A program made the translations under genes and the position numbers. A stretch of DNA of 64,000 bases from Ceratodon purpureus. Lineage: Eukaryota > Streptophyta > Bryopsida > Pseudoditrichales > Ditrichaceae. The stretch covers positions 7,227,528-7,291,527 of the forward strand of contig CM026433.1 in the NCBI GenBank assembly GCA_014871385.1. The letters are read 5' to 3'. Shown one piece after another: positions 1,727 through 16,290 of the stretch (position 1 is its first letter; each line of letters starts with the position of its first letter). The notes beneath the pieces are model-generated. The model worked only from the letters and a program-made list of their open reading frames with translations, had not been told where the DNA came from and searched no databases.

Positions 1727-1762
1727 TTCATTAGGAGCAGTTTGGGGTCTCCAACGGGCCTT
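1727..1762 (+). repeat. left terminal inverted repeat of 11-kb transposon
   Basis: The inner 17 bases, GGTCTCCAACGGGCCTT at 1746-1762, are a perfect inverted match to 12774-12790. The outer TTCATTAGG (1727-1735) matches 12801-12809 in the same register. The ten bases between are only partly conserved. The equal spacing shows that both blocks belong to one 36-bp repeat. Confidence 0.85.
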
Positions 1763-1808
1763 TTCCATGTTATTTGTGCCAAAATTTTGGGCATGCCCGT
1801 GCACTTTA

Positions 1809-1835
1809 CCTGCTGGCACCAACTGTGCCAGCAGG
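1809..1835. repeat. subterminal hairpin, left end
   Basis: CCTGCTGGCA (1809-1818) and TGCCAGCAGG (1826-1835) are perfect 10-bp inverted arms around a 7-nt loop. They sit 46 bp inside the left terminal repeat. The arms contain half sites of the GCTGNCAGC palindrome found throughout this transposon. Confidence 0.75.
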
Positions 1836-2495
1836 TCGCCAAAAGCGAGCCAAATCGCGAATGGGGGGGTCCGGCCAATAGTCGCGCAGGAAGGCTTCCC
1901 TCCCCCGCGCGTGTAGTCCCGCAGGTCGAGAACGGAGCCTCTTCGCGCACGGAATTCGAGCATTGCAGAAGGGTGTCAGCGGTGGTGGGCTTTATGAACT
2001 CCTGCAAAACTGACTCCACAGGCCACCTACCGAAATCGAATTGCCGCTCCCCCTTTGAGATGCAACGTGCACAAGGTGTTGATGTCGAAATGCTGCCAAC
2101 GGTCATTCCGAACCTCATGCGTTCCCCTGAGAGAGTTGTTGTCGTTGCGTTGTCAAGCAGGATGGAGCGGTGGAGGCCTCCAAAGGCTGGGCGAAGTTGT
2201 TCGATTTCGGTTGTGGGTGGTCACGCATTGTGCAGTAGAGATTTAGGGTTTAGCTGTAGTGGTCTTCCAACGCTGCCAGCGGTCTGCCATCCACATAGGT
2301 TGGAGAGAGTACCTGAGTTGGGAATTGGGGTTTCGGGATGAGGTTTTAGGGTAGGTCGTACCTTGGTTGCGAGGCCGTGGACACAGGTTTCAGCCGTTCG
2401 TGATGGCGGAGGGTGTGTTGACAGCGTGAAGTTCTGGCGGTTGATGACAGCGACGACACCATTTGTAAGTTTTTGAGTTCACAGTCGAAAATTTC
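1836..2495. other. left subterminal, non-coding part of transposon
   Basis: GC-rich stretch between the left terminal repeat and the first gene. It holds one exact GCTGCCAGC site (2272) and a near match GCTGCCAAC (2092). An open frame crosses it but starts outside the element and reads through the terminal repeat, so it is probably not a gene. A GTAAGT at 2464 followed by TTCACAG at about 2480 could be a 5'UTR intron of the downstream gene. Confidence 0.5.
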
Positions 2496-3837
2496 ATGCA
2501 TTCTAGTGGTATGGCTTCACGGCCAAACTCCCTCGTACAGAGTGTCATTCTGCATAATACTCAAGACTTGGAGGGCAACTGGATCCCCATGAGGGTGGAT
2601 CGTGATTCATGGGTTATGCTGCAACCAGCGTCGGATGGGCCTTGGGGTAGAGAGGCAAGGCGACATGGTGGAGAAAATTTTCGGGGGGCCTTCAAAGCGC
2701 AGATCAGAGATTTCTCTTGGATCTCCACGGAGCATGGAGCATGCGACCTCGATAAGGTGCTTGTGCAACATGCATATCAACCAAGGCATCTGCGCTTGGA
2801 TCCTACGGAGGCAGCAACCAAATTGGGAATGGCAAACTACCTGTACGCGTCGGTTTCGGAGGATTGGGTACATCCTGCATCTATCCTTGGTCCCATTCTT
2901 GTGCTCCATGTTGAGATTGGGGAGGCAACACGGAATCGACAGAGCCACGCGGAGTTGCTGGACATAGGTACATTCTTCCTTGGTGGTCTGTATTTGCCTC
3001 CAACAGGTGACACGCTGTACGGGAAGGTTGAAGCACTCCCGCTTCCAGAGTTCAACGATGTGGAGTGGCCTTTGCCAGACATGCACACATCTGAGGCGTT
3101 TATAACAAAGCTCACTCTTGATTTTGCAAATGCCATGAAAGCAACAACTGGTAGCAGCTTCGTCCACCACCAATGGTTTATGCCAATCCATGTTATGGTT
3201 GATTTGTTTGCGGTAGCTGCTGACAGCATTAGGCGGACACCTACATTGTTTGTTTTGAGACTTACTCCATCCGAGGCTCTGCTGAGCAGTCTAATGAACC
3301 CAGGGTGGAACGAGAAGTTCCACATTGGCCAAGATGTCATCAAGTGCGTTGCCAACAGGACCAGCATTGTTTTCCGCTATCACATGGGAAGACAAACATT
3401 TTACACCAGGTTCATGTATACAAGGTATAGGGGGGCTGCCAACAGTCAGTGGGAAGCGTTGGATCACCTACCAGAGGAGGTGATGGTGGAAGTGTCTTGT
3501 ATGTTTAGGGGGAACTTGCTGCCAACATTCGAAGTTGGCAAGGGTTGGCCAGTATCCCACCTGCGGCACGAAATTGCAATGGCACTTGGAGATGACGTAC
3601 CTGGGCAGTACAACCTGGTTTTGATAGAGGCCAACGGTGTTCGTGAGAAAAAGGTACGAGTCTAGCCGAATTCATGTAGTCGTTTTGATGTGTTGGGAAT
3701 TGGCTGTTCAGAGCTCCTTGCTGCCAGCAAACGAATATGACAGGATTTGTTGGATGCAGATCAACCAGCGCCATGAGAGACACCTTACAGCTGCGGATGT
3801 CACGGTTCCCAAAAGGATGAAGATTGTGGAGCTGTAG
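2496..3837 (+). CDS. transposon-encoded protein of unknown function (427 aa)
   Basis: I do not recognise this family. Two exons, 2496-3653 and 3712-3837, are joined in phase 0 across a 58-bp intron (donor AAG|GTACGAG, acceptor GGCTGTTCAG). The start ATG at 2496 is the first in a long open frame; a possible 5'UTR intron lies just upstream. The protein is globular with no signal peptide, membrane segment or clear metal motif. The last ~75 residues (from LPTFEVGKGWPV through LVLIEANGV to KIVEL) loosely resemble a ubiquitin-like beta-grasp layout, which is only an impression. It is the only plus-strand gene in the element and is convergent with the RING-like gene. The second exon contains a GCTGCCAGC site. 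An accessory role in transposition is inference from location. Confidence 0.65.
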
Positions 3838-4818
3838 GAAAAGTGATTTCGGGGATGGGTAGTCACAGTATGTCGGAAGTCATTAGGTTCTTCGCGAAGT
3901 CGTTAGCGAGTTCAGGTAGTGGTTCTACTTACCATTCAGGACTTTCTGTGGGACATCCTGTATTAACGTGTTATATGGAGGCAAATTTGTGATTACCCTT
4001 GATCTTCGTGCTGCCAGCGGAAATAGAAAAGAAAAACAGTTACAATTACCAGTGGTGAATCCTAGGGTGCAAAATGAAAAATAGAATAAAATACAAGAAG
4101 TCTGAAGAATGGCCGGGGTTTCAGAGGGCCTGGGTCTGAATCGCAAAATTGCTTCGAACTTGTGGTGGCGCCATTGACGCTGGAGCCTGCTGCCAGCGCA
4201 AAATAAGAAAAGAAAAACAATTGCATACAATAGAGCACATGACCCTTCAGAGGCACAAAATGGAGTTTGGCACTTGACAAATATGAAGTAATTAGGAAGG
4301 AATGTAAAGTTTGTTACTTCCTCCGAAGAGGCTGGCTCCTTCGTGAACCTGGTGCTCTGAACTGGCAATGGCGGGCACAATGCAGCCCTTGGTGCCAACA
4401 AAGACGAAAAAATGAAGGTTGCAAATAAAAAAAGAACCACGCTTGATTCTAATAGAATAAGATAAAAATAAAAAACAGTTGTACATAAGAGATGAAGTAG
4501 GTCGCAGATGGTAAATAACAACAATGGCCAAAATTGAAAGGGACCATGGTGGCGAATAATGAAATAAGAAAAAAAAAAAAAAATGGCGGCTAAAGAGCAG
4601 CCCTTGCTGTCAGCAGTCCACAATAAAGAAGAAATACAGTTGCGAATAAAAAGGAAGGGTTACAAGAATGCCATATCTTTCAAAGAGACATGGCAGTCCA
4701 GAGGCAAATTGTTTTCAAGTTCGGAAAAGTTTAAGAAATGTAGCCCATAAAAGTCCGGACCAAAAGTCGCTGCCAGCAAACCCCTAACCCGGCCTACGGA
4801 ACTATCTAAGGTGGGAAT
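3838..4818. other. convergent 3' intergenic region of transposon
   Basis: Lies between the 3' ends of the plus-strand 427-aa gene and the minus-strand RING-like gene. It carries four exact palindrome sites (4010, 4189, 4606, 4769) and poly-A/T tracts such as 4568-4584. Minus-strand open frames here are pyrimidine-rich and low in complexity and do not look coding. Confidence 0.55.
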
Positions 4819-6755
4819 CTACTCCACGGCTGCATCTGTGGCAATTGCCTCAACAAGGCTGGACAGTCCCTCCATGTTGGTGTCGTCCTCGTTCTTCTCA
4901 GCTGCACCTGGTCCTTGCGTGGTGGCGGATGAGCCCTTGTTCCCTTCTCCGGATAGGGCTGCCTGGGTCTCATGAGGAGAGCGTTGCGTGGGATCGAACG
5001 CCAGGGAGTCTGAGTCGGGGAGAGCATCCTCTGTAGTTGCTGCCAGCAAACAAGAATTAGAAAATAAGAATTATTCGGATGTAACAACGAATTAGGCAAG
5101 TAGCAATGGGCAGATAGGTTAAGGGGCAACAAACCTTGGTCGCCCTTGGTCTTCTTCCGCGGAAGCGCGGCCACAGAGGGGGCAGCGGGCCTCTTGCTGC
5201 CAGCACGTGGTGAAGCAGGCTCGGCCAGGAAGATCTCCTCCGTGAGACGTAACTCCTCCGCGGCCTTGGAGTCGAGGTGGAAGCCCCACTGCCCAAGCCA
5301 TCCTCCAGTCATCCCCCGCTCGCATCGACGGCACCGGGCGTCTTGGGAGAAGACTGCCTCAAACATACAATGGGGATGTGCCAAGCAGCCGCAGAACAGA
5401 GGTACGCAGCAGGTGTCAACGAAGTAACGCTCGCAGAAGGGGCATGGGTCGTTCAGGGCTATTGGCAACACCTGGAACTCCAATGGATAACGAGCCAGCA
5501 CCTTCTTCGGGCGCAAGAAAGCTGAAGCCAACTCCAAGGCCGAGATCTCCGCTGTTAGCGCGGAGACCTCGGCGTGGCGTCTCTGCTCATCGGCTTCCAT
5601 CTCCTCCAACTTCTTGTAGACCCTGTCAATGCGGGCTTGGGCCTCAAGGAGTGCCTTGCTTGCAAGCCCCAACTTGTCTTGGCCTAAGCGGGCCGCGTGA
5701 TCAAAGCGCCTCTTCTCTTGGTCGTTGCCATCAGCCGCGGCCTTCTTGGAGGCCTCGCGGGCGGAGAAGATGTCGTCATAGAGCTTGGACTCCTCGGCCT
5801 CCTTGGCCTTGATGTAGTCCCGCTGGGTTGCAAGGTCGACCTTGACGCGGTCCCGGCTGGCCTCCACCTTCAGAAGTGCCGCCTCCAAGGACTTCTTCTT
5901 GAGGCGCTGCTGCTCCAGGACCTGCTTCGGATCCGTTGCCACCAAGGGCTGCACCTTGATGGCAACGGCAGCAAGGGCCTTCACGGACTTCTTCTCAGCC
6001 ACAGCCTTGGCAGGAGGGGGCAGGGATCTAGGTCCCCTGACCTTCTTCGCCTCCGCGGCCGTGATCAAAGCCTTGAAGGTGGCTCCAACTGGCTTGGCTC
6101 CTCCGCTCGACTCCGCCCCTCCTCCCTTGCCCTTGCTGCGAGCACCGGGGATGTGGCGAGCGAGGAAGTCGATAATGGCTTCAATCTGCTCCCTCAAGGC
6201 CGGGGGAGTCAACTTCTGCGGATTACGCCCTGGCAGCTTCTCACGCCCCTTCACAATTGCCTCCGCCTTCTGGGCGAAGTTGACATCCACGCCCTTCTCA
6301 AAGTAGAGGTGGCAAGCCCGAAGAAAGGAGGTCCCGAATGCCCAGTTGTCGGGGTCACCTCCATAAGTCCACCGGTATATCTCGCAGTATTTCCTCTGGG
6401 CCTCCGGATCCTCACAGTCAGCAACGTAGTGCCGCCCAGAAGAACGCTCTGGCCATCTGTCGATGAAGTCGGCCTTCCTGCAATGCTTGTTGCCGCTGAG
6501 GTCACTGAACTTGAGCCCCTTGTTGGAGAGCTGCAAGGTGCGGGCGAAGAAGTCCTCATTGTAATCCGCAGCCTGCCTACCCAGCAGAAATGGGGCGAGG
6601 TGGTGGAGCTGTGCATGAAGTGCAGGGGGTAAGCCGTCCAAGTCGAAGGCGTCATCCCACGGCGTCTCAACATCGTTGCCATCCTCCTTGCTGTCAGCAA
6701 CCTCGACAACCTCCTTCTTCACGACGGCCTCCTTTCCCTTCCTACGGCTCGACAT
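4819..6755 (-). CDS. RING-like zinc finger coiled-coil protein, transposon-encoded (613 aa)
   Basis: Two exons: 6755-5135 and 5039-4819, joined in phase 1 across a 95-bp intron (donor GTTTGT, acceptor TTTGCTGGCAG). I chose the ATG at 6755 (MSSRRKGKEA) because a Lys/Arg-rich, nuclear-type start follows; an in-frame ATG 54 bases upstream is possible. Order: basic N-terminus; globular domain (~40-200) with conserved-looking Trp/Tyr residues; Ala/Lys-rich linker; long charged coiled coil (~290-410); cysteine cluster at ~438-478 beginning CPFC, with GC, H and CRRC pairs as in RING-type fingers; basic stretch; acidic C-terminal tail. RING domains often act as ubiquitin E3 ligases; here that is inference, and DNA or protein binding is equally possible. 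An overlapping 311-aa antisense frame is a shadow. Confidence 0.7.
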
Positions 6756-8816
6756 CCCTGGCGCTGGTAGTACAAAAACAACACGTTTTACGAAAGGGGG
6801 ATCGCGCATGGCAGCTGAAAGGAGAGAAACGGACAGGGTATTATTCTTGCAGATTAGAGATTTAAGCTACACATCTCTAAACCATTACCCCCCGCGACCC
6901 TAGCAGCCATTGCTGAGCAACTCTATTCTCTTCACCATGGTCGGTACGCTCCAACATGGCCAACCGCAACATAAGGAGGAGCAAGGTTGCAAAAAAATAG
7001 ACACGATCAGATCACTAACCTCGCAATGCTTCACTGTCAGCGGTGGAAGACGGTGCAGCTTGAAGCCCCTCTCGCCGCGCGTGACAATGCGCCTCTAGAT
7101 TCTGCAGCCGAGAAACCTCCACCTCACCCCACGCTCCCAGCCCTGCTGCTCCACCCCGCTTCTTCTGCTATAGCTCACCCTCCCCTCTCTCCGGCTGGCC
7201 TCGGTTCTTCTCCACTCCGCTCCTCACGCTGCAGCTCCACGCCCGCTCCTCACTTCGCCAATGAGCTCCACGCCTACTCCTCACTATTCGAGAGCTCCAC
7301 CCCGCTCCTTGTGCTGTACCCCCCTCCCCTCGGGCTCCCGACCGTGCTGCTCCTCCCCACACCTTGCGTTGTAGCTCCCAACCGCAAGAACTCGCCTTCA
7401 GCTCCACGGCCGCTCCTCACGTGACCCTCAACGCGAGCTCCGTGTAATGCAGCTCCGCCCCGCTCTATCACCTTCCGTGACCCACCACAGTGCTTGCGCT
7501 TCCGTTTCTTCTTGCCAACGACGTTGCTGCTCTTCCTTCGTCCTCCTTGCTGTACCTCCCCGCAGCTCTCGACCCTGCTGCTGCTCCTCGCTCCCGACCT
7601 TGCTGTACCTCTCCGCAGCTCTCGACCCTGCTGCTGCTCCTCGCTCCCGACCTTGCTGCTCCAAAACCGCTCACGACCCTCTTGCTCCACCTGCCGTTGA
7701 ATCTCCACGGCCCTCCTCGACGGCTCGCTCCTCACGCTGCAGCTGCTTCGTGCAGTCGACCGCAACGGCCCCTTCCTTCAAAGTCGTTGCTGGCGGTACT
7801 CTTCGTCTCCTCACGCGATCCTGAACGACCCAAAGGGGGTGCGTGACTGTACCGCCCTCTGAACATCCAACTTCCCCACGGCGCCCACAAAACTGCCAAG
7901 GTAATTGCAATCGCGAGGGCGCTTGCTGACAGCAAGAGGACGACTGAAGAAGACAGAGGAGCTGAAGAGGTGTTGGAGTCAACGGAGGGTGTCGTATGGG
8001 AACAAGGCAGGAAAAGAGAGAGGCCTTCCTGCCCGAGTCAACCACATGTGCGTCCTTGGAAACTAGGCCGGGTTTACTTCAAGAGGATATTGGAACGCTT
8101 TTAGGGGAGGTTTGGGGGGCTTAGAGGGAGTTGAGAGTCTCAAACAGAGTTTAATGAAGGGAGGTTGAGGAGTTGGTGCAAAGCTCTCATTTCTCCCTTA
8201 ATTGCCACTCCATGCAAATGATTGCCATGGCCCTAAACCACACATCCCCATTTGATGTGGGTACTTAGAAAATCGTCTTAGAAATTAAAATCTTAATTTG
8301 AGCGTGACCGGTACATATGATTACTAAGACCATTAATTATGAAGATTAATAATTGCATGGACTAGGCACTTTAGTGAGCTATCCACAAAACAAGTTTAGG
8401 GGAGAAACATGGCCTAACTCATTCAAAAAAAACATTGTTGCCAGCCACATTCTACATAGCTATAACATAATTACCAAGACACATTGCGGCCAAGTCACAG
8501 ACGGCCATTGCTCGCGTCGTCACTGTACTCCTTGCTGCCAGCGACCTCACTGTCAGTGGAATCACTACCTTCTCCATGGGTGCCTCTTTAATAATTATCA
8601 AGAGTAACATAGCAATGGATAAGCCATTTTAGGCAATTCCTGGATAAAATCCGAATCTTTTTTATAAATCTATTCGTAAATGGCTATTCTAGAATATAAA
8701 CCAAAAAACATGTTCAAGAAAAAACCACTGTCTACTCCGATTAAAAAAATAAAAAATAAAATAAGGACTTGTCACATTCTAGAATAGCCATCCAATGAGT
8801 TTAGAACGCATTGTAC
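6756..8816. other. internal promoter/intergenic region of transposon
   Basis: Holds the 5' side of the RING-like gene and the 3' side of the transposase gene. The stretch 7,050-7,830 is C/T-rich and repetitive (CTGCTGCTCC, GCTCCACGC, CTCCTCAC), so long frames there are low-complexity artefacts. Exact palindrome sites lie at 7925 and 8534. From 8,200 to 8,815 the sequence becomes AT-rich with no coding signal. Confidence 0.55.
7561..7659. repeat. 53-bp tandem repeat, about two copies
   Basis: A unit beginning CGCAGCTCTCGACCCTGCTG starts at 7561 and again at 7614, a period of 53 bp, within the CT-rich part of the transposon. The surrounding 7,150-7,430 contains looser copies of related CTCC/GCTCCAC motifs. 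Confidence 0.7.
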
Positions 8817-11800
8817 TCAATTCACACGGGTCACAGGGTCGCTGCCAGCGTCATCGCTGTCCACGTTGTTGCCAGCATCGTCACCGTCACTGGAGTTGAG
8901 ACCTTCCTCAGGATCCACATTGTTGCCATCCTCCCCGGGGTCATCTTCGTTGGCAGATCCTCTTGCTTGATCATTGTTGGCTCCATCACCTCCAACGGTG
9001 TTATCACACACCCAAGCTTTGCCAACACGCCGTCGCCTTGACCGCCAATTCTCCAAAGCCCTGGCAGCATTTGATCGATGCCATTGTTCTCGCCTTCTAC
9101 GCGTAGCCTCCAATCTTGCCTCATCATCCGGGGTATTGAGAACCCTGGTGGACTCTAATTTCTTCTTATACCGATGCTGTATATTTCGGTACCAATGCTG
9201 GAATTGTTGCAAAATAACACTGATGCGCTCTTTGCCACCACCGTGAGCTGTATGCGCTTGATTCGCTGCCTTCGCTTGATGATGGGATTTCTCCATACCC
9301 TGGCAACTCCATACGGCCAGACTACCGTATTCCTCCACAAACCAACTGCCATGCCTGACAATTACATGCTGTCAACAGCCACTCCAAGGTTAGTCCTGGA
9401 TAGAGAATTGACGAAAGTGAGGTCAGCCATCAACCCCTAATTCATCCCAAACTTCGTTCATATAACTCACCATGTAGTGCGACACATGCTCCTCTCCGAA
9501 GGCCTCCAAAAATGTTCTCCCCCACGTTTCTATCTTCCCTTTGAACTGGAGTCGTTGCTCTGCTGTGAGCACCAAGCCGCTGAAATATGGTAGAACCTCT
9601 TCAAAGGCTTGCCACATAGCAGCCCTTGCCCTACGATGTGCACCGCCGCCACTATTATTGCTCTCTGCTTGACATATGTCTTTCCAGGCCTTGTCGTTTC
9701 CAGACCATACGCTTGGTTTAAATAGTCTGCTAGCAACAACCACACTGAAAGATGGCTTCTGTGGCACATTCCCTCTGCTGCCACTCAGTTTCGGATCCTT
9801 TCTAATCTCCACATTGCCACCGTGAGCCCCGATAGCTGACAAGGACTTCTCCATTTGCTCTATGGCTGTAGCCCTCAGTCTTTGATCTTGTATGTTCCAG
9901 ACATAAATGATGTGTTGATGCACAATCTTCTCCGCTAGGCGAACTAGGGCGTGAAGTGTACAAATGTGCACTCTTTGCAACGGAATTGGCAAGATAGGCC
10001 TCCACCTTATATGTGCACGCATGTCACATGGTTCTGGCTCCACAGAGTTGGCAAACAGTCCCCCCACCCAATTCGGTTTCCCACGTTTTCTGATGGCAGC
10101 ACTCGCCTGGCTTGCTGTCCCTACGGTAGGCTTAGCCCTCTTCTACTCGCAGTATATGCAGTTCATCGCACGCGACGGCCCCGACTGAAGCCCGTACATA
10201 CACTTGATCGTCTTCATGTCCGCAGCGAGATGCCACTCCACATGGAATTCTCCAACTTCAGGGACCGTGAGTTTCTCGCCACTGGACTGTGCTGCAATCA
10301 CAGATGGAAATTTGGATTTCCCAAATATCCACGACAGAACTTCGTAGGACTCTTTTTCCACTTGAAAGGTTGCCACTGGCCAGATTTCCTGCTCTGACTG
10401 GACTGAGAAAAACAAGGCATGGTTTCTCTGAATGTCTGGGTCGAGCGCCCTATTCATCAATGTGATGCTGACCCGTTCAAACTTCTTGCCATTGACAATC
10501 TCGGCCTCGTCCAATTTCATGACAAATACCAGCGGTGCCCCTCTTAACTCTGTGGAAACATGGCGAGTGGATGTGTAAGTCACGGTTAATTGATAAATAA
10601 CCCTGCTGACAGCAAACTCTGAAAACAATAGTCTGAGGTGATTACGTTACCTTCTTCCGTGATGCCGTAGAAGATCACCATGCTCCTTTGGACCACCTCA
10701 AGGTCTGTGAATAGGGAATTCTTGTCAGTCAAAACGACTTCCTTTACCATGTCCTCAGACTTCTTGTTCTTCTTAGAACTTGCTGGCAGCGTAAGTCGAC
10801 CTTCAGCATGGTAGTATTCGCCAATATACTGTGGCAGGTTTGCATTTAACTCCTGCCAAAGCAGTTTCACGTGATAAGGGCTCGGCAAAATACTCCCGGA
10901 GATTCCTTTGTTCAGAGCAGCAATGGGAGCCTTCACAGATTTGTAGAGAGCACCATATCCCCGATGGGAAACCCCTGCCTGGTCGCAAGCAGCAAGAATT
11001 TTGTCCGGTCCAATACTCTTACCAATCGATTTGATCACATTTTTCGCAATATCTGACTTAACATGTGCCATTGCAGGCTGAGAAGCGAGTGCTACACCTT
11101 CATGCCGTGACAAAATTCGAGCTAGTGCTACTGCAGTCCTATTTTGGGACTCTTTATCCCCCCGCAGTCGAGAGCACTTCCGGTTCTCTCGGTTCCTTTC
11201 GACAACAAACTCCACCACATCTGGTTGCAGCACTGTCCGCACAAGCTTCACTCTTGCTTTTGATCCACCTGATCCAGGTTTTAACTCGTGAATCCTTCTG
11301 AGAGCCCTCCTCCTATTTCGCATGCCCATGGGGGTCTCCTTCTCGAAGCTGGCCCTCCGCTGGCAGCGTTCAACGTCTTCTTGGAGACCCCGCACATGGC
11401 GCTCCAATTGCTCCACCCTTTGGGCATGGCAATCACGGACAGCCTGTAATTCAGCTTGCAAATCCCTGCATTTCTTCTCTAACTCAAGGCAACGCATTCT
11501 CCCCAATTGGACATCTTGGGCTGCCCTTGAGTTGCTGGCCAGAGCTTCGCCTCTAAGCTGAAGCACTTCTTCGCTCAACTGTGCCAACTGGATCCACGTC
11601 TCCTCCTGTGTAGGACCATGTACACAATGATCCAGCAGCCTGTGTGTATATCCGCGAAGACCCTGCTCTCCATGACATATGAATTCAACGAACTCTTTTA
11701 GCGACTTGATTGGAGGTGGCTTCCCTGTCATTGGGTCAACAGGGTAAATGTCTCCATTGATCCACAAGTCAATGTTCGTGTCTCCACGCAACCTCCGTGT

Positions 11801-11923
11801 TGGAAACGAGCTCCTCATGCACAGCTCCACTTGCGTAGAACCTCGTCTCATGACCGGGGCATAGCGTGTGTCCAGTGCAAAGTGGGGAATGTACTGATTG
11901 CTTCGTTCAGCCCTTGCTGCCAT
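8817..11923 (-). CDS. DDE-type transposase with CxxC and CxxH motifs (948 aa)
   Basis: Probable transposase catalysing cut-and-paste movement of the 11-kb element. Four exons keep frame: 11923-10651, 10549-10147, 10089-9471 and 9368-8817 (introns 101, 57 and 102 bp). A TAG at 10145-10143 falls inside the 57-bp intron. N-terminal ~420 residues: a coiled coil (~130-220) and a possible DNA-binding helical region. The catalytic core shows a first Asp in MKLDEAEI (~438), a second Asp in AADMK (~535), then CIYC (555-558), CTLH (602-605) and a Glu in GMEKSHHQAK (~791). D2 followed by CxxC and later C/DxxH is a known signature of several eukaryotic transposase superfamilies, including CACTA. The C-terminus is basic, then strongly acidic. 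The third catalytic residue is inferred by analogy. I cannot place it in a named superfamily. Confidence 0.75.
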
Positions 11924-12773
11924 CGTGGACCCGATAGTCGGTAATCTTGATTGAATCTCCCCTGGTCACACTTGGTGATTTGCTGTTATTCGAGAGAACT
12001 TGTTATGATCTTGGGACACCTCCTACACCCAATGAAAAACTAAATTCACAACCTCAAATACTCCGAACCTAATTCGATAGACCTGCGTGGCATCTACAAG
12101 CGCTATCGACCACGAAACCTACATTGCCTTATGCCGTTGTGGCAGCAAGGGCTAATGAAATCGAAATTCAAATTGCTCAAAAACCCAGTACCCCCTGAAC
12201 ACCCCACAAAGGTTTATCGAATTAGGTTAACTTACCTTCCCTTCAAGTACATCAGTTTTCATCTCTTCGTTGAAACCTTGGTCGCCGACTGAGAACAACC
12301 CCCCGCCGCCGTCGCTGCCAGCGGACGCTGCCAAGAAATGAATTGCAATCTCAATTTTGCTCCTCCGGTCTGGGGCGCCATCGCCACTCGGAATCTTTCT
12401 CGCAAATCACATACGATTGTGCGTCCCACAGTGCCAACAACGACTTGCTTGAAGCAGAACAGGGCGCTTCGTTTTCTTGGTGCTGAACGGCGTAGAGCCG
12501 GTGGCGCCATCGCGCCCAGACCGTTGTGGCAACAACTCGAACAATCCGTGGATCGAGGCAACGGATTGAGGCACTTCATTAATCGCCGAGCAATAAATCC
12601 CACTCCTTGGCGCTCAACAACCACCGTCCACGCCCTCTCGCCAACGAGGCAAAACCCGGCCACGCAACTCCCGTCCGTCTCCAAAAGGCCGCTTCGGGCA
12701 GCGTTTCAGACCCCTGCTGCCAGCGACAGAGGGGGTTTTGGGCAGGCAGCCCACCTAATCCGGGCTGCCTTAC
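11924..12773. other. right subterminal region and transposase promoter
   Basis: Non-coding DNA upstream of the transposase start, running to the right terminal repeat. Exact palindrome sites lie at 12314 and 12716. Open frames on both strands at 12,260-12,800 overlap each other and the terminal repeat and are rejected. GTAACTTACC-like splice motifs near 12,230-12,240 (minus strand) could mark a 5'UTR intron. Confidence 0.5.
12744..12770. repeat. subterminal hairpin, right end
   Basis: AGGCAGCCC (12744-12752) and GGGCTGCCT (12762-12770) are perfect 9-bp inverted arms around a 9-nt loop, three bases inside the right terminal repeat. It mirrors the hairpin near the left end, with a different stem sequence. 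Confidence 0.75.
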
Positions 12774-12809
12774 AAGGCCCGTTGGAGACCTCATTTTTCC
12801 CCTAATGAA
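12774..12809 (-). repeat. right terminal inverted repeat of 11-kb transposon
   Basis: Reverse-complement partner of 1727-1762: AAGGCCCGTTGGAGACC at 12774-12790 and CCTAATGAA at 12801-12809. The LINE coding sequence begins almost immediately outside it. Confidence 0.85.
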
Positions 12810-15800
12810 AAGCACCTCTGAACCGTAAGAGAGAAGTGGAACTTCGCAGCAAGTTGGAAGCAGCGACCGTTTCCCTTCAGGCCAACCCCCTTTCGAGCTC
12901 GCTCCAACTGGAGGTCGCCAAATTTCGAGAAGAGTTGGGCTCTCTGGAGCGAATACAGGCTGATGGCGCTAGGGTGCGGGCTAGAACTCGCTGGAAAGAA
13001 AAGGGAGATGATTGCAACAAAGAGTTTTTCCGATGGGTCCCGTAGAAGCCAAGAGCAACCGTCATCCCTGAGCTGCGAGGTAACGACGGCCTGCTTCACC
13101 AGCAGGGCCCCCAAATGGAAGCGGTAGCTAGGGAGTTCTACGCCAATCTCTACGCTGCCCCTGCGGACCCTCCCCCAGACCTTTGCGACCTAGTGCTGAG
13201 CAAAATTCCCCAGCGCATTCCTCCCGACCAGAACAGAGACCTTGGTAGGCTGCTCACGAGCGATGAGCTGTACAAGGCTGCTAAGTCGCTGGCGAAGGAT
13301 AAAGCCCCCGGGCCGGATGGAATTAACGTCCAATTTTATACCTGCCACTGGAAGCTTATCGGTGGTGAGTTTTTAGCGATGATCAACAAGGCCCTGGCTG
13401 CCGGTCAATTACCCCAGGGAATGACCAAAGGTCTTCTCTCCCTCATCTACAAATCTGGCCCAAAGGAGGAGCTCCCCAATTGGAGGCCGATTACTTTACT
13501 GAATACATCCTACAAAATCCTAGCAAAGGCTCTCCAGCTCAAGATTAAACCAGTTTTATCTGACCTAATTGACCCAGACCAGACGGCTTTTGTGCCCCTT
13601 AGATCTATACTCGACAATGTGCTGGTGACGCATGAGACCATCAACTATGCGAAGAGATCCTCCCAGCCCCTTCTCTTCCTCAAAGTTGATTTCAGCAAGG
13701 CCTTTGATAAGGTAAGCTGGGATTTTCTATTCAAGTGTTTGGCCAAATTTGGTTTCTGCGACTATTTTATTTCCCTGGTCAAGCTCCTTTTTAGAGGAGC
13801 TTCAGCCTCGGTTAATCTGAATGGATCCAGAACTGATACATTCCCCATTAAGAGAGGGGTGAGGCAAGGCTGCCCCCTTGCCCCCTCTCTCTTCATCATT
13901 GTGGCTGAGGTTTTAAATATCTTAGTTAAGGATGCCGAGCTTGGTGGTTTAATCCAGGGGATCCACCTCCCTAACTCCACCCAAACTCAAATTATTTCTC
14001 AATTTGCAGACGATACTTCAATGACTTTAGAGATTAGTGATCCTGAGTCCATCAGGTGCCTTATTACCATTTTAGATACCTTTAAAAATGTTAGTGGCTT
14101 GGAAATTAACTGGCAGAAAAGTCACGCTTATTGGCTTAGTCACAGTAGGAAATCCCAATGGCTTGAGCACATAGGTTGGACCTGGGCCACTGAGGATGAT
14201 TTAGTCAAGCTTTTGGGTACCCCATTTGGGATCGACCCCTCATCTAGTAGTATAGATGATTTCCTCTTAGACAGGGTCACGAAGAAACTGTCGTACTGGA
14301 CTTCCCAGCGTCTCTCATTGGCTGGGAGAGCTCTTGTAGTGAAGCAAGTGCTTCTATCTTCACTGTGGTTCTTTGTCTCTGTCTGGCAAGGAACTGTAAA
14401 AGTTTTAAGCAAGATTCGTTGCCTGCTTCGAAACTATCTGTGGACCGGGAAGGAGCACACCGCAAGGACTCGGGTTAGCTGGAGAGATTGCTGTGTAAAG
14501 CGGAAGGCTGGAGGTCTCAGTCTGATTGACCCCCAAGTAACCACTTCCTCCTTGCTCGGCAAATGGATCCTCACAGCCTATAGCCCAGGGAGCTCGAATC
14601 TGCAAGTTCTCTTGCGTGACAAGCTCTGGTACTGCAGCCCCTGCAAAGGCCCAGTTTGGCCTGCTAACCCTCATTGGGGACTCTCAAAATCTCACACCCC
14701 CAAGCCAGGCTCCAAGGTCTGGAGCAAAATCCACCTGGCTTGGAGGAAACTCAATCCTAAAGTCAAATGTATCCCTCCTTCCGGCCCTGCTGAAGCCTCC
14801 CAAGTGCCGCTATGGTGGGATTCTGAATTCAAAGGAGGACCGCTAAACATTTCTCACGAGTTAGCAAGGGAACTCTACTGCAAGGGCATTCGCACGGTTG
14901 CTGACATCTGGGACCCCCAAAGGAGAGAATTCAAGTCACCGGGCAGGTTGGGCGATGAGTACACACTCTCTGCCGAAGAAGAATCGAGCTTGGCGCCGTT
15001 GATTGAGAGCTGTGAGCAGCGATACAAGGATACCCTGTGCTCCCCGGCCTCGGCTATTTCCCTCGGCGATTGGATCGGGGGCTTCAGGACCGAACAGGAT
15101 GAAGACCCCACCTTCCTCCTCAGAACGTCGGCAACTTGGTGCCTCCGCTCCATCAATGACTTGGCCTGCTCAGGGCACCACCCCAGCCCTATGCCATCTT
15201 TCATGTGGGCCGTAGATCCAAGCTACTCATACGTCATGAAACTGAAGACATCTACAAGGAGATCAGCGAGTGGCCTGGTCCATTTCGGAAAGTTCGTGTG
15301 GCCCAGATCGAGAAGAACAAGGGTCCCAAAGCTGAGTTTTTTCTCTACTTTGGCATGCCTGGCAAACTAGGTGGGATTGATCCTGATCTTTGGAGGTGGT
15401 CTGGGGGCATGCCGTTTATGATGTATTGTGCTCGGAAGGGCCGTGAGCTCCTAACGGGCAGCGCCACTCTCACAAAGTCCATTAAAGACAAATGGCGCAC
15501 AGAAGGGAGCCCGAATTTCACCCTTAAGTGGAAGGACATTTGGAAGTCAGGCAGGAGCAAGAAGGAGGCGGCCTTTATTTGGTCGCTATGGCATCGAGCA
15601 GTGGCAACCAACTCATGGCGGGGTAAATTCATCCCGCACATTGACCAATCTTGCTCCCTTTGTTCTCTTAATTGCACTGAGACTTATACACATTGTTTTT
15701 ACGAGTGTAGGAATGCTAGGAATGTTTGGAACTACTGTTTCTATCTTGTCCATGTGTTCAAGAAGGGAATCAGGAACACTACTCCTCCAAAAACTCTTAC

Positions 15801-16290
15801 CTTCCACCAGTGCCTATTTGGGCAGCACGTTCACTTTTGAAAGAACAGTACCACCAAGCTGTGGTCCCTGATCAGGGGAATCGCCCTCTGGGCCATATGG
15901 CTGAGCAGAAATGAAAAGGTCTTCGGTGGAGACTTATGGTGTGCTAACCGAATTAGACAATTTGTCTGGGATTCACTTCTAGACTATGCAAGGATTGCTT
16001 GGAAACGAACGTTAGCTCAAGTCAAGAAATGCATCTCTGAGGCAATGATCCAAAGCACTCTCAACTCTTTTGACGCGAAATGGCTCGACAGGAATTTAAT
16101 AGGTGTTAGAACTGATAGAAAAGTGGTTTGGAACTTGTTGCCTCCACGTGGTATTGTCACGCACTGGTTCTAGTAGCTGCTAGGGTTCAGAAGTCTTGTT
16201 CTCGCCACCCTGGACTTTGGTCCGTTAAGGATCGGTTGTTCCGTTCTTCTCTGCAATGAAGTTTTTCATTTGCTCCAAAAAAAAAAAAAA
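12810..16290 (+). mobile_element. 5'-truncated L1-type LINE
   Basis: A non-LTR retrotransposon remnant: reverse transcriptase region, plant-type zinc-binding domain downstream, then a 3' tail ending in a run of about 14 A at roughly 16,277-16,290. The endonuclease domain and 5' part are missing. The coding frame is visible right up to the right terminal repeat of the adjacent transposon. Either the LINE inserted there truncated, or the transposon landed in it; no LINE 5' half was seen left of 1,727, which favours truncation. No clear target-site duplication was found. Confidence 0.85.
12836..16173 (+). pseudogene. L1 LINE reverse transcriptase, broken
   Basis: Translated 12836 to ~15230 in one frame except for a TAG at about 13045. 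RT motifs in order: LAKDKAPGPDGIN, NWRPITLLN, VDFSKAFDKVSWDF, RQGCPLAPSLF and FADDTS, the last holding the catalytic aspartates. Around 15,230 the frame shifts, and the sequence continues through KDIWKSG and CSLCSLNCTETYTHCFYEC, the zinc-binding RT-associated domain of plant L1 elements. A TGA at 15838-15840 interrupts the tail, which then reads on to TAG at 16171. With two stops, one frameshift and no endonuclease it cannot move by itself. Similar to many plant LINE copies; family membership is secure from the motifs. Confidence 0.88.

Follow-up and report, generated by a model that had tools for sequence, protein, structure and literature searches.

Dispersed palindromic dyads in a transposon family of Ceratodon purpureus as possible sites of self-recognition

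Detailed knowledge of how transposons counter silencing in a sequence-specific manner comes from the VANDAL elements of Arabidopsis, and many short sites for an element-encoded protein, there in subterminal position, are also a property of En/Spm with its protein TnpA. VANC21 binds the motif YAGTATTAY and VANC6 binds different motifs, and the motifs of each protein are enriched in the families to which it belongs (PMC5735166). In Spm, demethylation correlates with activation by TnpA (PMC10398659). The Spy elements (PHIS group) are described as cut-and-paste transposons that leave no target-site duplication (TSD), insert within AAATTT and possess one transposase gene (PMC4482050). In the present work we describe a transposon, family A, in a stretch of 64,000 nucleotides of Ceratodon purpureus (contig CM026433.1; hereafter the window), which carries three genes and a palindromic core of 9 bp scattered over its whole length, and compare it with the related families B, D and C60.

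Similar to VANDAL21 and VANDAL6 with their proteins VANC21 and VANC6, family A holds a short motif that is dense in the element and rare elsewhere. Moreover, the motif differs between related families (GCT-3-AGC, two half-sites with a gap of three bases, in A and B; GTT-3-AAC in D), further genes lie beside the transposase, and the candidate binding protein is less conserved than the transposase. However, the VANDAL motifs are arranged in same-orientation tandem repeats in non-coding DNA, whereas those of A are dispersed palindromes, eight of 18 in open reading frames, and A has inverted ends with no TSD found. The VANC domains DUF1985 and DUF287 were not detected in the proteins of genes 1, 2 and 3 by Pfam up to an E-value of 10. 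Family A resembles En/Spm in its many short sites, but these run through the whole element instead of being subterminal, as had been noted in an earlier sequence-only reading of this DNA; in addition, the A ends are CATTAG, no 3-bp TSD was found and no CACTA transposase domain was recognized by Pfam. With Spy, family A shares the absence of a detectable TSD at its flanks, but 18 pairs of A flanks show no AAATTT site, A and B carry three genes, and gene 3 has neither a DDE domain recognized by Pfam nor a convincing match in PDB.

The dyad and its counterpart in related families

A search of the whole window for exact matches placed the core GCTGNCAGC at 18 sites between 2272 and 12724, all of them within the element (Table 1), and none in the remaining 52.9 kb. 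The sequence-only reading had reported 17 cores and none in the other ~53 kb; the dense cluster and its confinement are real, and the count is corrected to 18. In 100 dinucleotide shuffles of the window the mean count was 1.05 and the largest 4. The same reading held that many cores extend to TTGCTG-N-CAGCAA, which was overstated, as four of the 18 are perfect 13-mers. The underlying preference is nevertheless real: all 36 half-sites of A and 29 of the 32 of B have T or C adjacent to the core, and the flanks favor TY/RA in both families. As that reading had also described, the sites are scattered over exons in different frames, since those within the listed open frames (6,107 of the 11,079 nt of A) are read in all three phases. 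An origin of the dyads from a peptide or codon pattern was rejected for the same reason.

In the whole assembly (362 Mb, 151 contigs) the 13-mer TTGCTGNCAGCAA is present at 962 places, its reversed form at 8, and two palindromes of equal composition at 22 and 26. The core itself was counted 9,987 times versus 2,025 for its reversed form, which is an imperfect and weaker control because it is CpG-rich. Among the matches listed for the first 2.95 Mb of contig C1 there are 59 cores, 19 of which fall inside one A copy of about 11 kb; the other 40 are distributed over 2.94 Mb, about one per 73 kb. The core is thus not dense in unrelated DNA.

Family B, of which one copy of 10,629 bp was read whole (L035+L057) and two in part (L036, L037), is 74% identical to A in the gene 1 protein and 79% in the second exon of gene 3, and about half of each element fails to align with the other. 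The exact core is found 18 times in A and 16 times in B, where the next commonest palindrome of the 4-1-4 type reaches 2 in each. At only three of the 18 A sites does B have an exact core in the aligned position, and the non-aligning parts hold 10 A sites (in 5.5 kb) and 8 B sites (in 5.1 kb). Since B has 16 sites and shares only these three, the positions have turned over while the density was kept. The motif has not been lost in other copies: other A copies retain it, as does the diverged family B.

One-mismatch variants, pooled for A and B, are concentrated at the C of the half-site, with 28 seen and about 3 expected, versus 3, 7 and 6 seen and about 3.5, 2.9 and 2.6 expected at the other three positions. 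The C-to-T type accounts for 15 of the 28 and is the commonest one-mismatch form. From the pooled variants and the flanks of each family the A/B consensus was written as TYGCTGNCAGCRA. Variant profile and flank preference look as they would for a real binding profile.

A blind scan of 64 three-base half-sites with gaps of 0 to 11 (768 dyads) ranked GCT-3-AGC first in A (24 seen, 3.68 expected) and second in B (18 versus 2.94). The first rank in B was taken by TGC-2-GCA (23 versus 4.27), of which 8 of 23 overlap the exact core and the others are half-site-like. In family D, represented by 8,985 bp of an assembled stretch with its left part missing (L071+L065+L072), the scan ranked first a dyad of the same geometry, GTT-3-AAC (24 versus 3.83), while GCT-3-AGC and GCTGNCAGC were both absent; the D counterpart of the core is written as GTTNNNAAC. 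The 3.8 kb beside the D copy contain no GTT-3-AAC, and four other D copies, which are related and so not independent, contain 11 to 14 per 3.6 kb. Another motif guessed for D, TTTGTTGNCAACAAA, was rejected, as it was found 2 times versus 5 for its reverse. The strongest dyad of each of A, B and D was reached by none of 120 Markov simulations, and five 11-kb stretches from the rest of the window (two overlapping) gave ordinary values. Because D keeps the geometry but has GTT-NNN-AAC, recognition would have diverged along with the family.

In C60, a relative of 5,715 bp with both ends assigned by sequence, inverted ends and genes 1 and 3, no dyad exceeded chance. GAT-3-ATC (7 versus 1.71), the candidate considered there, was discarded as ordinary, since 66 of 120 simulations reached it among 768 tests.

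Gene 2 and the possible meaning of the dyads

That the dyads are functional is well supported. Their density over the whole element, their survival through turnover and the presence of a different dyad in D point to a protein that recognizes the DNA of its own family. The dyads would be sites for a sequence-specific, probably dimeric protein encoded by the transposon, and their dispersal over the whole element would allow this protein to recognize and cover its own kind of DNA. The sequence-only reading had suggested an element-encoded DNA-binding protein that coats or marks the element or counters silencing. Our results support this interpretation in part: neither a dense motif in unrelated DNA nor its loss from other copies, either of which would have refuted it, was observed. 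An element-specific binder is in line with the different dyad of equal geometry in D; its identity and its role we infer from the following comparisons.

The best candidate for the binder is gene 2, because of its presence/absence pattern and its rate of change. Families A, B and D carry this gene; it was not found in C60, the sole complete relative without a significant dyad, and its product evolves fast (45% identity between A and B over 341 amino acids, 24% between A and D over 470). A RING-like zinc pattern, CPxC-x13-CGCLxHPxC-x11-CxxC, read by eye from an alignment, is common to A and D. The D protein gives weak PDB matches to RING domains, the best being Ring1B with an E-value of 0.029, while three of the 20 weak matches listed are to unrelated proteins or not to RING; the Pfam RING model reaches an E-value of 1.1 in D and gives no match for the window copy.

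As to the role, self-specific anti-silencing is our leading guess because VANC and VANDAL are the nearest precedent, and by this analogy a protein of A may bind the DNA of its element and remove methylation in a VANC-like manner. CTG and CAG, both contained in the core, represent the CHG context that is methylated in plants, and binding to the dyad could be sensitive to silencing. Taken as a whole, the reading that an element protein, most likely that of gene 2, binds the dyads along the element, perhaps for anti-silencing, is one that we hold with moderate confidence.

Several observations weigh against this reading. No DNA-binding domain was recognized in gene 2 in Pfam scans, and the proposed link between gene 2 and the dyads rests on four families, two of which are close relatives. 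The gene content of D is incomplete because its left end was not found. No significant dyad of this shape was found in further relatives, namely in two stretches of 3.6 kb each (L061, L062) and in one of 1.8 kb (L079); the last, near a gene 1 copy of another group (see below) and possibly outside the element, was uninformative. Alignment of recent A copies, in which only six of the 18 sites had at least five aligned copies, revealed no better conservation of the core (12 of 1,240 base calls vary, versus 919 of 115,279 at other positions), with lower variation in the flanks 6-60 bp from the core (68 of 16,543). The test for extra conservation in recent A copies was negative.

The dyads might instead serve transposition, as sites for a transposase or accessory protein that represent an expanded form of the subterminal TnpA sites, with the product of gene 3 or gene 1 as the binder. 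Binding to repeated short motifs is common among transposon proteins, and sequence resembling the core is present near both A ends, as one-mismatch sites at the left and as an exact core with a one-mismatch site at the right, and also in two short derivatives with five and four one-mismatch sites. We consider this rather unlikely, as the dyads also occupy the interior of the element, including exons, both short derivatives are devoid of the exact core, and C60 lacks a significant dyad in spite of its genes 1 and 3 and its inverted ends. Less probable still is a host transcription or chromatin factor exploited for expression of the element. The use of host factors is common among transposons, and such a factor would likewise keep the density through turnover, but a single host factor would be the same for families of one genome, between which the dyad differs; moreover, the core is as rare elsewhere as described for C1, and the sites do not cluster at one place but occur across the element and its frames.

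We attach very little weight to the idea that the host uses the dyads to recognize and silence the element: the CHG context of the core and the prevalence of the C-to-T type among the variants would agree with it, but such sites should be lost through selection on the element, and B has a like number in other places. An absence of function, with the dyads as relics of internal repeats or of biased composition, was already unlikely and seems to us about equally improbable. The lack of extra conservation in recent copies would suit it, but the counts lie several-fold above the Markov expectation, the sites occupy other places in B and a base is changed in D; an origin from tandem repeats was discarded, since the sole array found in A (7545-7660) holds no site.

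Structure, relatives and insertion of the elements

The positions of the dyads and of the other features of the element are given in Table 1.

Table 1. Features of the family A element, in positions of the window
Feature	Position	Strand	Basis
Whole element, family A, 11,079 bp, CATTAGG...CCTAATG	1729..12807		ends aligned with other copies, terminal inverted repeat arms
Left terminal inverted repeat	1729..1762	+	inverted-repeat arm; end set by other copies
Right terminal inverted repeat	12774..12807	-	inverted-repeat arm; end set by other copies
Subterminal palindrome CCTGCTGGCAC...GTGCCAGCAGG, half-site-like sequence	1809..1835		read from sequence
Gene 1 main exon, 389 aa	2496..3662	+	open frame
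Gene 2 open frame, 667 aa, part may be intron	4809..6809	-	open frame
Gene 2 RING-like C4HC3 zinc pattern, spacing as in D	5322..5444	-	alignment, by eye
Gene 3 first long exon, 445 aa	10589..11923	-	open frame, genome matches
Gene 3 second long exon, transposase-like (LDEAEI, AADMK, CxxC, HxxxxH)	9426..10628	-	open frame
Gene 3 C-terminal open frame	8820..9338	-	open frame
Dyad GCTGCCAGC	2272..2280		exact-match count
Dyad GCTGACAGC, in gene 1 exon	3219..3227		exact-match count, frame check
Dyad, perfect 13-mer	3720..3728		exact-match count
Dyad	4010..4018		exact-match count
Dyad	4189..4197		exact-match count
Dyad	4606..4614		exact-match count
Dyad	4769..4777		exact-match count
Dyad, perfect 13-mer	5039..5047		exact-match count
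Dyad	5196..5204		exact-match count
Dyad, perfect 13-mer; same place in family B	6690..6698		exact-match count, A/B alignment
Dyad, perfect 13-mer	7925..7933		exact-match count
Dyad	8534..8542		exact-match count
Dyad	8841..8849		exact-match count
Dyad; centre base in 22/30 other copies unlike window	10605..10613		copy alignment
Dyad; same place in family B	10782..10790		exact-match count, A/B alignment
Dyad	11359..11367		exact-match count
Dyad	12314..12322		exact-match count
Dyad; same place in family B; centre base in 29/29 other copies unlike window	12716..12724		copy alignment

Exact matches to a 24-mer of the left end number 130 in the genome (63 + 67), and short derivatives may be among them. 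Two such derivatives of about 400-460 bp with A- or B-like ends were noted (L037:8741-9200 and the stretch L077/L060/L078); the one nested in L037 has a block like the subterminal palindrome, and in the derivative of 400 bp both ends are present and the flank duplication is not longer than 1 bp. Gene 1 likely has a small second exon near 3754-3840. In the window copy a stop codon breaks the second exon of gene 3, which is open over 407 amino acids in other copies. The 445-amino-acid first exon of this gene has at least 95 genome matches of 89-100% identity; of 1,303 candidates, only the top-ranking ones received a score. No Pfam domain was found above cut-off in the three A genes, and no Pfam transposase match up to an E-value of 1 in seven gene 3 proteins. 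Queries of PDB with the gene 3 and gene 1 proteins gave no convincing match, and viral contigs, when scanned, yielded no relative of gene 3. Close to the right end of A lies a reverse transcriptase frame of the long interspersed nuclear element type (13115-15370, gene region 13115-15840), a neighbor that is not part of A.

Besides gene 3, family D has gene 2 on the strand opposite to its orientation in A. Gene 1 was not found in the D stretch at E-values up to 0.01, and in about 3.2 kb upstream of gene 2 in a second D copy its only matches comprise 8 and 17 residues (E-values 0.29 and 0.51). D is concentrated on contig C6 (110.5 Mb), with 86 of 90 gene 2 match rows among the matches listed, several rows belonging to one copy in places. 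The second exons of gene 3 in other relatives are 46-55% identical to A. Furthermore, a group of gene 1 matches of identical score with a frame of 423 amino acids (e.g., C1:12186083, C8:10846199) suggests another recently active family.

The A, B and C60 elements and the right end of D terminate in CATTAG and not in CACTA. In 18 pairs of A flanks, none share 3 bp or more, two share 2 bp and five share 1 bp, and for lengths 1-12 the identity of the flanks is near the mean of shuffled pairs (44/144 versus 36.1 at length 8, 10/54 versus 14.2 at length 3). An affiliation to PIF/Harbinger, suggested by a first look at the terminal inverted repeats, was rejected in view of the CATTAG termini and of the lack of any flank pair with 3 bp in common. 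Gene 3 of one relative contains an inserted A copy (L007, L052), from which the order of both insertions is evident. The joined flanks around this copy, inspected by eye, read in frame over 24 residues as in two other relatives; the in-frame junction with an equal number of residues indicates that there was no net gain or loss at the insertion. No description of such an element was found among the titles and abstract openings listed for the open-licence literature, which is weak evidence of novelty.

Significance of a proposed palindromic self-tagging code

We tentatively propose, as possible rather than probable, that these elements form an unclassified superfamily which inserts without TSD and evolved self-tagging independently of the VANDALs, with a RING-type protein that binds a dispersed palindromic code and a switch from GCT to GTT that leaves sister families of one genome mutually unrecognized. 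At the tagged DNA, host silencing factors or histones would then be the targets of the RING domain. The A-type elements may also constitute a transposon superfamily that has not yet been described and that moves and inserts without TSD. If the proposed self-recognition is true, it would provide a second, unrelated case of sequence-specific anti-silencing in a distant plant, and self-tagging would be a recurrent strategy of transposons. With a palindromic code varying from family to family, the elements would then lend themselves to clean tests of the code itself, of the candidate protein and of its change of specificity.

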